Of a DNA stretch of 64,000 bases, positions 48,344 to 56,238 are shown one piece after another (position 1 is the first letter of the stretch; every line of letters begins with the position of its first letter). The notes below the pieces were generated by a model. It did no database searches and had not been told where the DNA came from. It saw nothing but the letters and a program-made list of their open reading frames with translations. The DNA comes from Tenacibaculum caenipelagi (GTDB taxonomy: Bacteria > Bacteroidota > Bacteroidia > Flavobacteriales > Flavobacteriaceae), in assembly GCF_004363005.1 (NCBI RefSeq), contig NZ_SNYH01000002.1, positions 558,001 to 622,000 on the forward strand, in the 5' to 3' direction. The position numbers and the translations under genes are program-made.

Positions 48344-48365
48344 CAATTCAAATGTTTTTGAATTG
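48344..48365 (+). promoter_or_regulatory. Leader hairpin of the copper receptor gene
   Basis: CAATTCAAA, loop TGTT, TTTGAATTG: a perfect 9-base stem 47 bases before ATG 48412. It is not followed by a T-run, so it is not a simple terminator. A short frame, ATG 48339 to TAA 48383, reads MNNSNVFELEGAIM across it. Confidence 0.4.
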
Positions 48366-48411
48366 GAAGGTGCTATTATGTAATTATGTAAAAAAATTAA
48401 ACCCAATTTTA

Positions 48412-50496
48412 ATGAAAAATTTAGGATGGATGCTTCTTAGTATCTTCACTATAACTATGTCTGCACAACAAAAAAAAGACACAGTTAAACAACAAACAAT
48501 ACAATTAAACGAAGTAATCGTTAACGGAAAAATAAAAACAAACCCTGTTCACGCTACAGTAAAAAATGATTATCAAAAAAAGGTAATTCAACCTAAAAAT
48601 GTAGCAGACTTATTTTCTGAAATTAACGGATTTTCAGTTATAAAAAGAGGAAACTATGCCATGGATCCAACATTTAGAGGTGCTGCTTACGAACAGCTAA
48701 ATGTGATGTACGATGGAGGTACAAAAGCGGTGAATGCTTGTCCGAACAGAATGGATCCAATTACCACACATATCATTCCCGAAGAAATTTCAAAAATTGA
48801 AATTATCAAAGGCCCTTTTACAGTAAGATATGGTGCAACTTTTGGAGGTATCGTAAATATGGTTACCGAAAACCACAGGTTGTTAGATAACGGATTCCAC
48901 GGAAAATTCTCATCAGGCTATGAGACGAATGGAAATTCATTTGTAAATATGTTACAATTACAACACGTAGCCAACAAGTTTGATGTGGTAGGGAATGTAG
49001 GATATCGAAACTTTGGAGATTATAAGGATGGTAACAATACGGAAGTCCCGTCATCTTTTACCAGTACCGATTACGGTATAAAGTTAGGTTATAATTTTAC
49101 AGAAAATCAACGTTTACAAGCGCACTGGCGTCAATCGTTTGGTAGAGATATAAAGCACGCTGCCTTACCAATGGATACCGATTATGACAACAGTACAATT
49201 GTATCGTTAGATTACAAAGTAATAAATATTGGTAGCACATTAAAAACAATTACAACAAAAGGTTTTTACAGCTATGTAGATCATTTAATGACGAATGAAA
49301 ACCGACCAAATTTCAACATGGTTTTTGCTTCGTCACCAGTAGAGTCAACTACTATCGGAGGTAAAGTAGAGTTTGAGTTTAATATGCATAAAGATTTTAA
49401 TTTGTTTGTAGGAAGTGATATCAATAACATAAAACGAGAAGGAAATCGTACACGTACTATTAAAATGATGAATGGTACGATGCTACCAATGCCAATGGTT
49501 AAAGTAGATAAGATTTGGCAAGATGCTTATATAAATGATGTAGGGGTATTTACCGAAGCAAAATTCAACTTAGCAGCTAAAACTATTTTAACTACAGGAG
49601 TTCGCGTAGATATTGTAAACGCAAAAGCAAAAGACTTAGAAGCTGATTTTGCTGCAATATATCCAGAGGTAAAAACAAATGAAACGAATGTAAGTGGTAA
49701 TATTTCATTAAAACACGCATTTTCTAAAAAAGCAATTTTAGAAGCAGCATTTGGTAGAGGTGCACGTACAGCAAACATGGCTGAGCGTTATATCAATCAT
49801 TTTACTATAGGGTCAGATTCGTATGAATATTTAGGAAATCCATTGTTAAAACCAGAAGTAAACAATCAGTTTGAGTTAGGGTTAAAAGGAAAAATAGCAT
49901 TGGACAAAAGCTTAAGATTGCACTATCAAACATCTGTGTTTTATTCAATTTTTGAAGACTATATTTCCGCGGTGGTAGATCCAACAATTCCACGAAAATT
50001 TATGCCTAATCAAAAACCTGAATTTACAAAAGTGTTTACCAATATAGAAGATGCTACCAAAAAAGGGTTTGAAATTGCAGCAAAATTAGAGGTGTTGAAC
50101 GACTACTATTTACAAACAAAAGTGGCTTATGTAAAAACAGAAAACAAGGATTTTGATGAATCGTTGCCATTAAATCCACCTTTTACATCAAAAATTTCTG
50201 TAGGAGTAGATAAAGAAAAATACTGGGCAAAGGCACAATATAATATTGTATCGAAGCAAGAAAATATTGCACCTTCTTTTGGTGAAACTGTAACGAAGGG
50301 ATACCAAATTTTTGATGTGAAATTAGGAGTTAAACCCTTAAATAAATTAACATTAGGGCTTGCTTGTTTAAATATGTTTGATGAAAATTATACGAACCAT
50401 TTAAACTTCTCGTATAAAAACCAAGCAGATTTGCCAATGACAAGAATTAACGAACCAGGAAGGAATTTTACAGCTTTTTTGCAGTATAAGTTTTAG
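48412..50496 (+). CDS. TonB-dependent copper receptor, NosA/OprC-like
   Basis: 694 residues from ATG 48412, which gives a regular signal peptide (MKNLGWMLLSIFTITMSAQ); a start at 48352 adds a non-signal tail. The plug domain (about 45-165) contains GGTKAVNACPNRMDPITTHI with Cys110-x3-Met114, the copper site described for OprC. The 22-strand barrel follows and ends in FTAFLQYKF. It probably imports copper across the outer membrane for NosZ, using one of the TonB proteins in the window. It follows the small Cys protein gene after 98 bases. Confidence 0.93.
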   Translation: MKNLGWMLLSIFTITMSAQQKKDTVKQQTIQLNEVIVNGKIKTNPVHATVKNDYQKKVIQPKNVADLFSEINGFSVIKRGNYAMDPTFRGAAYEQLNVMYDGGTKAVNACPNRMDPITTHIIPEEISKIEIIKGPFTVRYGATFGGIVNMVTENHRLLDNGFHGKFSSGYETNGNSFVNMLQLQHVANKFDVVGNVGYRNFGDYKDGNNTEVPSSFTSTDYGIKLGYNFTENQRLQAHWRQSFGRDIKHAALPMDTDYDNSTIVSLDYKVINIGSTLKTITTKGFYSYVDHLMTNENRPNFNMVFASSPVESTTIGGKVEFEFNMHKDFNLFVGSDINNIKREGNRTRTIKMMNGTMLPMPMVKVDKIWQDAYINDVGVFTEAKFNLAAKTILTTGVRVDIVNAKAKDLEADFAAIYPEVKTNETNVSGNISLKHAFSKKAILEAAFGRGARTANMAERYINHFTIGSDSYEYLGNPLLKPEVNNQFELGLKGKIALDKSLRLHYQTSVFYSIFEDYISAVVDPTIPRKFMPNQKPEFTKVFTNIEDATKKGFEIAAKLEVLNDYYLQTKVAYVKTENKDFDESLPLNPPFTSKISVGVDKEKYWAKAQYNIVSKQENIAPSFGETVTKGYQIFDVKLGVKPLNKLTLGLACLNMFDENYTNHLNFSYKNQADLPMTRINEPGRNFTAFLQYKF

Positions 50497-53139: not shown

Positions 53140-56100
53140 ATGCAATACAATCACCAAGAGATAGAAAAAAAGTGGCAAAAGTACTGGGCAGATCAAGGTA
53201 CATTTAAAGCTGAAAATAATTCTGATAAACCAAAATATTATGTGTTAGACATGTTTCCTTATCCTTCAGGAGCAGGATTACACGTTGGGCATCCGTTAGG
53301 GTATATCGCATCCGATATTTATGCTCGTTACAAGCGTCATAAAGGGTTTAATGTATTGCATCCACAAGGATATGATTCTTTCGGATTACCTGCTGAACAA
53401 TATGCAATTCAAACAGGACAGCATCCAGCAATTACTACTGAAACGAATATCAAAACCTATCGTCGTCAGTTAGACAATATTGGATTTTCATTCGATTGGT
53501 CTCGCGAAGTTCGTACTTCGAATCCTGAGTATTACAAATGGACACAGTGGATTTTTATTCAACTATTCAACTCTTGGTATAATAAAGATACTGATAAAGC
53601 AGAAGATATTGCAACCTTAGTAGCTAAATTTGAAGCAGAAGGGAACGCGAACGTAAACGCAGTTTCTGATGAAGATATTAGGCTGTTTTCTGCCGAAGAA
53701 TGGAAGAGCTTCTCTGAGAAAGAACAACAAGAAATACTATTACAATACCGTTTAACATTCTTATCTGATACCGAAGTAAACTGGTGTCCAGCTTTAGGAA
53801 CGGTATTAGCAAACGATGAAATTGTAAACGGAGTTTCAGAACGTGGAGGACATCCAGTAGTTCGTAAGAAAATGACCCAGTGGTCTATGCGAATTTCTGC
53901 GTATGCACAACGTTTGTTAGACGGATTACAAAATATCGATTGGCCACAACCATTAAAAGATTCTCAAACCAACTGGATTGGTCGCTCACAAGGTGCCATG
54001 GTTTCTTTCGATGTTGATGGACATGATGCTAAAATAGATGTGTTTACGACACGTCCTGATACCATTTTCGGAGTGTCTTTTATGACCTTGGCTCCAGAGC
54101 ATGACTTAGTGAAGCGAATCGCTTCTGATGAGCAAAGAAAGGCTGTTGAGGAATACATAGAGGCAACAGCAAAACGTTCAGAACGCGATCGTATGGCTGA
54201 TGTAAAAACTATCTCGGGAGTGTTTACTGGTGCGTATGCGTTGCATCCATTTACAGGAAAACAAGTACCAATTTGGATTGGTGATTACGTATTAGCGAGT
54301 TACGGTACGGGAGCAGTTATGGCGGTACCATGTGGTGACCAACGTGATTACGATTTTGCAAAATACTTCGGGTTAGAGATTCCAAATATTTTTGCTGATG
54401 TTGATATTTCTGAAAAAGCAAACGATGCTAAAGACGGAATCAAATTAGCGAACTCTGATTTCTTAGACGGTTTAAACTATAACAAAGGAATGAAAACCGT
54501 AATCTACGAATTGGAAAAGCGTGGTATTGGTTATGGGAAAATAAACTATCGTTTACGTGATGCTGTATTTAGTCGTCAACGTTATTGGGGAGAACCATTC
54601 CCAGTATACTATAAAGATGGAATGCCTCAAATGATTGATGCAAAGCATTTACCAATTGTATTACCTGAAGTTGAAAAATACTTACCTACTGAAGATGGAA
54701 AACCACCATTAGGAAATGCAGATGTTTGGGCATGGGACACAACAACAAACACTGTTGTTGAAAATAACAAAATTAACAACGAAACTGTTTTCCCTCTTGA
54801 ACTAAACACCATGCCAGGGTGGGCAGGAAGTTCTTGGTATTTTAACCGTTATATGGATTCGAATAACGAAGGAGAATTTGTAAGTAAAGAAGTGGTTGAC
54901 TATTGGAAAGAAGTAGATTTATATATCGGAGGTTCTGAACACGCTACAGGACACTTATTATATGCACGTTTTTGGCAAAAATTCTTATTTGATAGAGGAT
55001 TGTTACCTGTTGATGAGTTTGCAAAAAAACTCATCAACCAAGGAATGATTTTAGGAACTTCTGCTTTTGTGTATAGAGTTGATTATGTTGGAGGATATAA
55101 TCCCCAAAAAATAAACGGACTTCCTACTTTGACTAATCCTATTTATGTAAGTTATGGTTTTATTGAAAAATTTAAAGAACTATATAGTTTCTTGGTAGAG
55201 AATCCAAAAATACCAAATGATGAAAAGTTGAAGTTTATACATAATGGTGGTTATACAGGTTTGTTTGAACTTCTATTAGCAGAAACACCTATTTATGATG
55301 TTGAACTTAATCAAAACCAGCAGAGTGTTTTAAGGACTTTCATAGAAATATTTAAAACAGTTGAAAAAGACATTTATAATCATAATGCTGAAATTACAGT
55401 AGATGGATTAAAATTTTCTCCAATTCATACAGATGTTTCTTTTGTAAATGCTTCTGATGAATTAGATATTGAAGGATTTAAAAACTGGAGAGAAGAATTT
55501 AAAGATGCAGAATTCATTTTAGAAGATGGTAAATATATTGTAGGTAGAGAAGTCGAAAAAATGTCGAAATCGAAATACAATGTGGTGAATCCAGATTTAA
55601 TTTGTGAAGAATACGGAGCGGATAGTTTACGTTTATTCGAAATGTTCTTAGGTCCGTTAGAGCAAACCAAGCCTTGGAAAACTTCAGGTATTTCAGGAGT
55701 GTATTCTTTCCTTAAGAAATTATGGAAATTATTTGCTGACGAAAACGGTATCAACGTTTCAGACGAAGAACCAACTAAAGAAGAATTAAAAACATTACAT
55801 AAAACAATAAAGAAAGTAGAAGAAGATATTGAGAACTTCTCGTTCAATACGTCAGTTTCTACCTTTATGATTGCAGTAAACGAGTTAACAGCACTAAAAT
55901 GTAACAAACGTGCTATTTTAGAGCCGTTGTTAGTGTTAATTTCTCCTTATGCACCACATATTGCAGAAGAATTATGGAGTCAGTTAGGACACAGTGAGTC
56001 TATTTCAACAGTAGCTTTTCCAAAATTTGAAGAGAAGCATTTAGTTGAAAGTTCTAAGAACTATCCGGTTTCTTTCAATGGTAAAATGCGATTTACCTTA

Positions 56101-56238
56101 GAATTACCGTTAGATATGAGCAAAGACGAAATAGAAAAAACGGTAATGGCACACGAAAAAACACAGGCACAACTCGCAGGACGAGAGCCAAAGAAAGTGA
56201 TTATCGTTCCAGGGAAAATTATCAATATTGTAGGATAA
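53140..56238 (+). CDS. leuS: Leucine--tRNA ligase with an unusual insertion
   Basis: 1032 residues, about 100 longer than I would expect for this phylum. The class Ia core is intact: HVGH (48-51, HIGH-type), the CP1 editing domain (about 225-420, with TRPDTIFG and GTGAVMAVPCGDQRD), and KMSKS (807-811), then the anticodon-binding domain. Between SAFVYR (about residue 641) and PIHTDVSFVNASDELDIEGF (761-780) there is about 110 residues of a helical, Asn/Phe/Leu-rich segment not typical for LeuRS, at the place of the leucine-specific domain. The frame is unbroken. It charges tRNA(Leu). A strong terminator follows. Confidence 0.95.
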   Translation: MQYNHQEIEKKWQKYWADQGTFKAENNSDKPKYYVLDMFPYPSGAGLHVGHPLGYIASDIYARYKRHKGFNVLHPQGYDSFGLPAEQYAIQTGQHPAITTETNIKTYRRQLDNIGFSFDWSREVRTSNPEYYKWTQWIFIQLFNSWYNKDTDKAEDIATLVAKFEAEGNANVNAVSDEDIRLFSAEEWKSFSEKEQQEILLQYRLTFLSDTEVNWCPALGTVLANDEIVNGVSERGGHPVVRKKMTQWSMRISAYAQRLLDGLQNIDWPQPLKDSQTNWIGRSQGAMVSFDVDGHDAKIDVFTTRPDTIFGVSFMTLAPEHDLVKRIASDEQRKAVEEYIEATAKRSERDRMADVKTISGVFTGAYALHPFTGKQVPIWIGDYVLASYGTGAVMAVPCGDQRDYDFAKYFGLEIPNIFADVDISEKANDAKDGIKLANSDFLDGLNYNKGMKTVIYELEKRGIGYGKINYRLRDAVFSRQRYWGEPFPVYYKDGMPQMIDAKHLPIVLPEVEKYLPTEDGKPPLGNADVWAWDTTTNTVVENNKINNETVFPLELNTMPGWAGSSWYFNRYMDSNNEGEFVSKEVVDYWKEVDLYIGGSEHATGHLLYARFWQKFLFDRGLLPVDEFAKKLINQGMILGTSAFVYRVDYVGGYNPQKINGLPTLTNPIYVSYGFIEKFKELYSFLVENPKIPNDEKLKFIHNGGYTGLFELLLAETPIYDVELNQNQQSVLRTFIEIFKTVEKDIYNHNAEITVDGLKFSPIHTDVSFVNASDELDIEGFKNWREEFKDAEFILEDGKYIVGREVEKMSKSKYNVVNPDLICEEYGADSLRLFEMFLGPLEQTKPWKTSGISGVYSFLKKLWKLFADENGINVSDEEPTKEELKTLHKTIKKVEEDIENFSFNTSVSTFMIAVNELTALKCNKRAILEPLLVLISPYAPHIAEELWSQLGHSESISTVAFPKFEEKHLVESSKNYPVSFNGKMRFTLELPLDMSKDEIEKTVMAHEKTQAQLAGREPKKVIIVPGKIINIVG

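Follow-up and report, generated by a model that had tools for sequence, protein, structure and literature searches.

In known leucyl-tRNA synthetases (LeuRS), the leucine-specific domain (LSD) is placed near the 3' end of the tRNA. The agrocin-84 self-immunity enzyme AgnB2 is described, in the passages of PMC5059758 dealing with its resistance, as a LeuRS without an LSD that carries KQSKS in place of KMSKS; addition of an LSD to an AgnB2 triple mutant lowered the half-maximal inhibitory concentration (IC50) of TM84 to a value 34-fold below that of wild-type AgnB2, and the same passages group the LSD with the tRNA-interacting elements. At the level of whole genes, synthetase homeoalleles exchanged by recombination in flanking DNA are described in part of PMC3191353, where antibiotics are suggested as a possible cause, and three forms of LeuRS are reported from haloarchaea in an excerpt of PMC3436685. 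The T4 protein Alt ADP-ribosylates ProRS, which suggests, as far as the relevant passage of PMC3014915 goes, that host synthetases can be targets of phage action. Here we describe the leuS gene of Tenacibaculum caenipelagi, located in a stretch of 64,000 nucleotides (positions 558,001 to 622,000 of the forward strand of contig NZ_SNYH01000002.1, NCBI RefSeq assembly GCF_004363005.1) referred to as the window. Judged by alignment to its relatives, its enlarged LSD is one version among many at a hypervariable site.

The leuS gene (53140..56238, plus strand) encodes a LeuRS of 1032 residues that scores 908 bits against the TIGR00396 profile at a cut-off of 548.4, which places it in the family, and in which Pfam recognises the editing, class I and anticodon-binding domains. 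It is the single gene above the family cut-off in a profile search of its own 3.27 Mb genome, and its nearest named relatives belong to Tenacibaculum (T. discolor, T. aiptasiae). An earlier note, made from the sequence alone, had described an in-frame insertion of about 110 residues at 55081-55420 in the LSD of an enzyme of 1032 residues. Alignment to relatives confirms this and gives the exact limits of the variable segment, which comprises 114 residues (647-760; 55078..55419, plus strand) between SAFVYR and PIHTDVS, where the short form of the relatives has about 19 residues (VEGTNTFVSKGLIGDKKVQ in T. discolor). Counted from LINQGM to KMSKS, the window enzyme has 181 residues versus 88 in the short form of T. 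discolor (L109), a net gain of 93. The LSD directly precedes KMSKS and aligns with the short LSD at both ends, so that it represents a variant of this domain. Two further statements of the note held: the segment is richer in A+T than its flanks (27.5 % G+C versus 35.9 % for the whole gene), and no intein or homing-endonuclease domain is found in the window LeuRS by Pfam. As the homologous segment in the sister genome G131 is 82 % identical, the segment is not an assembly error. No known domain was detected in it above the Pfam cut-off, and the best hit of a PDB sequence search had an E value of 0.59.

This version is rare. Searched alone, the insert matched 1 of 59 genomes, its own, and within the genus it is carried by 2 of 166 genomes, its own and G131, so the segment is not shared by all close relatives, as the earlier note would have expected of an ordinary one. 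A search of 397 genomes of the family returned no relative of the insert beyond itself and one chance match, G131 being absent from the answer, presumably because it was not drawn. That match outside the genus (G193, E value 6e-4) was rejected, since the long frame of the stretch reads as another gene, which we take to be NAD-dependent DNA ligase. The viral contigs searched held no relative of the insert, and at the protein level the segment matched only itself in its own genome. LeuRS was also searched for in phage and plasmid records (58 and 76 records, respectively), where the two top plasmid matches are Bacteroidales sequences with the short form.

To place this version among its relatives, LeuRS sequences from 80 named loci, 132 genus genomes and one order-level sequence were compared, of which 212 were parsed and 206 are distinct; six of the 212 rows duplicate named records, and L116, L133 and L254 were not parsed. 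A LeuRS match was obtained in 137 genus genomes, 132 of which are in the genus tree (G031, G092, G097, G127 and G011, the last split over two contigs, are absent). The genus as delimited in the genome collection also includes Polaribacter porphyrae, and the LeuRS of G015 and L043 are identical over the compared part. The distinct enzymes comprise 43 short and 163 long forms, and the long forms fall into 69 BLAST families at an E value of 1e-4 (54 of them single sequences; the same number at 1e-3 and 71 at 1e-6), a count that is an upper bound because profile methods would merge some of the families. In the genus the LSD is 72 to 168 residues long; among the named loci it reaches 194. The short form is found in all ten parsable order-level relatives from other families and in two Bacteroidales sequences, which makes it the probable ancestral state. 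Long forms are likewise found in Chryseobacterium, Fulvivirga and some other families of the class, and LeuRS frames span 920-1123 residues among the 24 class-level matches listed. Six families of versions are common to the genus and other genera, including Aquimarina, Kordia, Seonamhaeicola, Psychroserpens and Flavobacterium. Searches of open-licence PMC papers gave no description of a variable LSD in Bacteroidota.

From one sister species to the next, the versions turn over. A tree of the 132 genus LeuRS was computed with the LSD and the CP1 (editing-domain) hairpin excluded; on it, 24 states require 40 changes, compared with 68-73 in 20 shuffles and a minimum of 23 if each state arose once. 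Nine species of one well-supported clade, 0.942-0.984 identical in the LeuRS core, carry six versions when KMSKS and KMSKRW short forms are counted apart, and in 36 of the 108 genus pairs whose cores are more than 95 % identical the two partners have different versions. In these 36 discordant pairs the 60 codons preceding the LSD have a median nucleotide identity of 0.939, which falls to 0.601 within it and returns to 0.919 beyond it; the corresponding medians of the 72 concordant pairs are 0.939, 0.907 and 0.933. In most of the seven pairs profiled, the drop lies no more than about 20 codons from the borders; the pair L134/L123 shows an extra, weaker dip about 100-140 codons upstream. Comparison of long forms with each other gives a bimodal distribution of segment identity: where the cores are more than 0.96 identical the median is 0.91, yet 29 % of the 48 pairs fall below 0.25. 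High identity of the flanks, low identity inside the LSD and this bimodality together argue that the LSD is replaced as a cassette through recombination within conserved flanking sequence, a reading of the alignments that we consider very probable. The profiles and the discordant and concordant pairs delimit the exchanged cassette in the window as the LSD between NQGMIL and EKMSKS (residues 639-805; 55054..55554, plus strand). Identity between species falls just past the conserved upstream anchor NQGMIL (residues 633-638; 55036..55053, plus strand), and the KMSKS catalytic loop (residues 807-811; 55558..55572, plus strand) marks the downstream limit.

The borders themselves covary. KMSKRW replaces KMSKSK or KMSKSY in 24 of the 206 distinct LeuRS (L127 and L110, for example), and all 24 have SA[IL] rather than SAF before the LSD, as do only 11 of the 182 other enzymes. 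The KMSK type changed seven times on the genus tree. As the coupled positions, residue 643 and the KMSKS loop, flank the LSD, the exchanged unit probably includes both.

Within the long versions the framework of the short LSD remains recognisable. Of the 163 long versions, 157 contain a hydrophobic-hydrophobic-Ser motif that resembles the short form's FVSK strand, where about 89 would be expected from shuffles, and with families 0 and 1 excluded the strict form with a following Lys is found in 32 of 67 family representatives (4.8 expected). Because most long versions keep this native strand motif, they look like loops grown on the native LSD hairpin. In the window, PIYVS (residues 667-671; 55138..55152, plus strand) is, by alignment, motif counts and structural model, the retained framework strand and the counterpart of TFVSK in the short form. 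An AlphaFold model of the full-length window LeuRS built from 58 sequences (mean predicted local distance difference test score (pLDDT) 79.9, predicted template modelling score (pTM) 0.71) has a strand at residues 668-670 and a helix starting at 672. The insert was predicted, with moderate confidence (block pLDDT 50-83), to be mostly helical in the order strand-strand-helices-strand, in line with the helical character proposed by the note; its longest predicted helix comprises residues 725-747 (55312..55380, plus strand; block pLDDT 66-75). Comparison of the full-length model by VIA-align, in which it aligns best with LeuRS structures, is uninformative on the insert. L088, a Flavobacterium version with four relatives, folded alone with a pLDDT of 86.9, with a strand at the motif and helices immediately after it; its LSD found no PDB match at E ≤0.001 and reached Z ≥2 in none of 319 chains, which does not by itself show a new fold. 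None of eight LSD segments from other LeuRS scored above the Pfam cut-off. The earlier reading of the insert as a single acquired domain thus stands in part: the enlargement is absent from most close relatives, but it is one of many exchanged versions, most of which keep the native strand motif. A more fitting description of the long versions is that of elaborated LSD hairpins exchanged as a cassette.

All 163 long versions have a G+C content below that of their own gene, by 8.2 points on average. The ratio of nonsynonymous to synonymous substitution rates (dN/dS) of the segment is 0 to 0.45 in the 20 pairs, out of 22, for which it is defined; between the window and G131 it is 0.39 for the segment and 0.07 for the core. 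As estimated from these pairs, the values indicate constraint (purifying selection) within version types and are not proof of positive selection.

In the controls made, hypervariability is specific to LeuRS. Across 68 genus genomes, 56 of 58 single-piece matches to IleRS have frames of 1132-1180 residues and the 61 full-length matches to ValRS span 879-922 residues, whereas genus LeuRS frames range from about 931 to 1212 residues with rows seemingly cut by contig ends set aside, part of this spread being due to the CP1 insert. Comparison of the window genome (the window and 20 stretches) with G078 (represented by 40 stretches) gave 80 comparable pairs of orthologous open reading frames (ORFs), and LeuRS is the only one of them in which a dissimilar stretch lies internally between conserved flanks. 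G078, the only relative compared for gene order, has a different version and retains the order around leuS. Elsewhere in the window, the middle (48979-50080) of an ORF at 48352-50496, presumably a TonB-dependent receptor, has no DNA alignment to G078, and the surrounding gene order is kept.

LeuRS has a second insertion site in the genus at the CP1 hairpin, which is present in its 16-residue base form in the window (53998..54045, plus strand). Inserts of more than 100 residues occupy this hairpin in 78 of 132 genus LeuRS (L158 and L179 among them) versus none of 79 named loci, and the two inserts tested are DUF559 nuclease-like domains (6e-32 and 4e-20). In 35 of the 79 named LeuRS the hairpin exceeds 20 residues, reaching up to 60, and several of these resemble translated dispersed repeats. 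In L332, a Parabacteroides distasonis record labelled as a plasmid, three consecutive genes with ORF6N domains (1178-2911) lie immediately upstream of leuS.

The explanation we favour, to which we give somewhat less than an even chance as a whole, is that of a hypervariable cassette replaced by recombination with its turnover driven by LeuRS antagonists. Versions would be replaced via homologous recombination in the conserved flanks using DNA from other cells, an origin suggested by the fact that no second copy turned up in the genomes searched. In 24 genomes, a probe for silent cassettes made from the LSD tail never matched more than once per genome, with limited sensitivity as it missed the LeuRS of G028. 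For a diversity-generating retroelement only a protein-level copy was sought, and none was found in the window genome; the differing lengths of the versions would also fit such a system poorly. Such antagonists, which may be small inhibitors, phage proteins or injected toxins, would act inside the cell and contact LeuRS in the region of the LSD, the KMSKS loop and the 3' end of the tRNA; a new version would escape the antagonist while catalysis continues. From the precedents of AgnB2, the homeoalleles and T4 Alt we infer such an escape, and among the effects that the earlier note had proposed for the insert, published precedent favours inhibitor sensitivity. A LeuRS-directed antagonist as the driver of replacement is a tentative proposal that we hold to be plausible but rather less than evenly probable. 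Still more speculative is the picture of the cassette as a receptor-like polymorphic patch, traded across species and genera in an arms race with putative phage proteins, injected toxins or natural products.

Several observations weigh against this explanation. No recent donor of a version was found, segment identity exceeding core identity in just 38 of 1827 same-family pairs and by 0.055 at most. Versions common to different genera are 23-58 % identical at core identities of 73-82 %; being less alike than the cores, they indicate that divergence in place contributes. None of the pairs has a dN/dS above 1, so pairwise comparison gives no sign of positive selection. According to the inhibition data in PMC5059758, as excerpted, wild-type AgnB2 was unaffected by the addition of the LSD, and the LeuRS of Helicobacter pylori is inhibited although it has no LSD. 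The tRNA-Leu(TAG) of the window is only 95 % identical to the form common to eight relatives, and that of G131 only 86 %, which leaves room for a tRNA role in the case of the window version.

Some of these points would suit a tip of the LSD that tolerates almost any insert, its content being shuffled by natural transformation with no version mattering. The absence of the LSD from other LeuRS such as AgnB2 and the H. pylori enzyme (as stated in part of PMC5059758), the A+T-richness of every long version and the lack of dN/dS values above one are as such drift at a permissive site would have it. On the other hand, it does not predict purifying selection within version types, a version predicted to form a compact domain (L088), the covariation of KMSK[S/R] and SA[F/I/L] across the cassette, or the restriction of the pattern to one of 80 gene pairs, and we consider it unlikely, if the most serious of the alternatives. 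Folded, helical versions, as predicted, could also bind different partners of their own cell in a new regulatory or moonlighting function; these partners would, however, need changing between species that are 97-98 % identical in the LeuRS core, and the single relative compared, despite its other version, retains the order of genes around leuS, making such a function improbable.

The inserts at the CP1 hairpin, with DUF559 domains and short repeat-like peptides, raise the question of whether the LSD versions are likewise worn in-frame insertions of mobile elements, and some LSD tails do read as repeat-like peptides. Since the window segment and the eight others remain below the Pfam cut-offs, the window segment matches nothing else in its own genome and the native strand motif is retained in the majority of long versions, there is in our view only a slight chance of a mobile origin. 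The position of the LSD near the tRNA 3' end would equally permit versions that fit LeuRS to a species-specific tRNA-Leu, and tRNA-Leu(TAG) is indeed divergent in the window genome, G131 and G100. G100, however, combines it with a short form. Furthermore, of 24 genomes, 10 with several different versions share a 100 % identical tRNA-Leu(CAA), and 8 with five versions share a 100 % identical tRNA-Leu(TAG) (other isoacceptors were seen only as cross-matches), and identical tRNA genes across different versions weaken co-evolution with tRNA-Leu to a point where we find it hard to credit as the general cause. As an observation in its own right, the three genomes with divergent tRNA-Leu(TAG) hold a divergent full copy and a partial copy 27-99 kb apart (G000, the window genome, C6:104611-131781; G131, C53:5913-63125; G100, C23:107427-206675), which look as if an integrative element had attached there and brought its own tRNA-Leu.

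Aminoacyl-tRNA synthetases are housekeeping enzymes expected to evolve slowly, and outright replacement of a segment beside the active site between species that are 97-98 % identical elsewhere in LeuRS points to a strong, unnoticed pressure on this enzyme. If antagonists drive the turnover, the versions would amount to a natural collection for finding LeuRS-binding toxins, phage proteins and antibiotics, and would show how a catalytic enzyme can bear an exchangeable surface. In Flavobacteriaceae, leuS is a risky marker gene.

Compared with the described systems, the site occupies the same position just before KMSKS as the LSD of the Escherichia coli and Thermus thermophilus enzymes, and the short form corresponds to the LSD hairpin; in contrast to these, the window version exceeds the short form by about 93 residues, and the versions are interchangeable between sister species. 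As in AgnB2, both the LSD and the KMSKS loop are altered, two elements that contribute to toxin sensitivity there (in the parts of PMC5059758 concerned), but AgnB2 is the self-immunity enzyme of a toxin producer and lacks the LSD, while here a single LeuRS gene bears enlarged and diverse versions. Segmentally variable genes, as presented in sections of PMC387263 that discuss synthetases with ProRS as an example, likewise combine a conserved enzyme with a variable segment; their variation is found among organisms at large, whereas here it separates, with sharp breakpoints, species that are 94-98 % identical in the LeuRS core. Like the homeoalleles in the portions of PMC3191353 and PMC3436685 cited above, the versions are divergent forms of one enzyme that are patchy among relatives and linked to recombination in the flanks, and they share the same gene neighbourhood as judged from one relative. 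The whole gene is not the unit exchanged, since the flanks within the gene are 92-94 % identical, and in place of the two or three forms of whole genes given in these portions, one internal segment occurs in dozens. Exchange of the LSD cassette, of which the searches of open-licence PMC papers gave no earlier description, is thus homeoallele-like, with an internal domain in dozens of forms taking the place of the whole gene.
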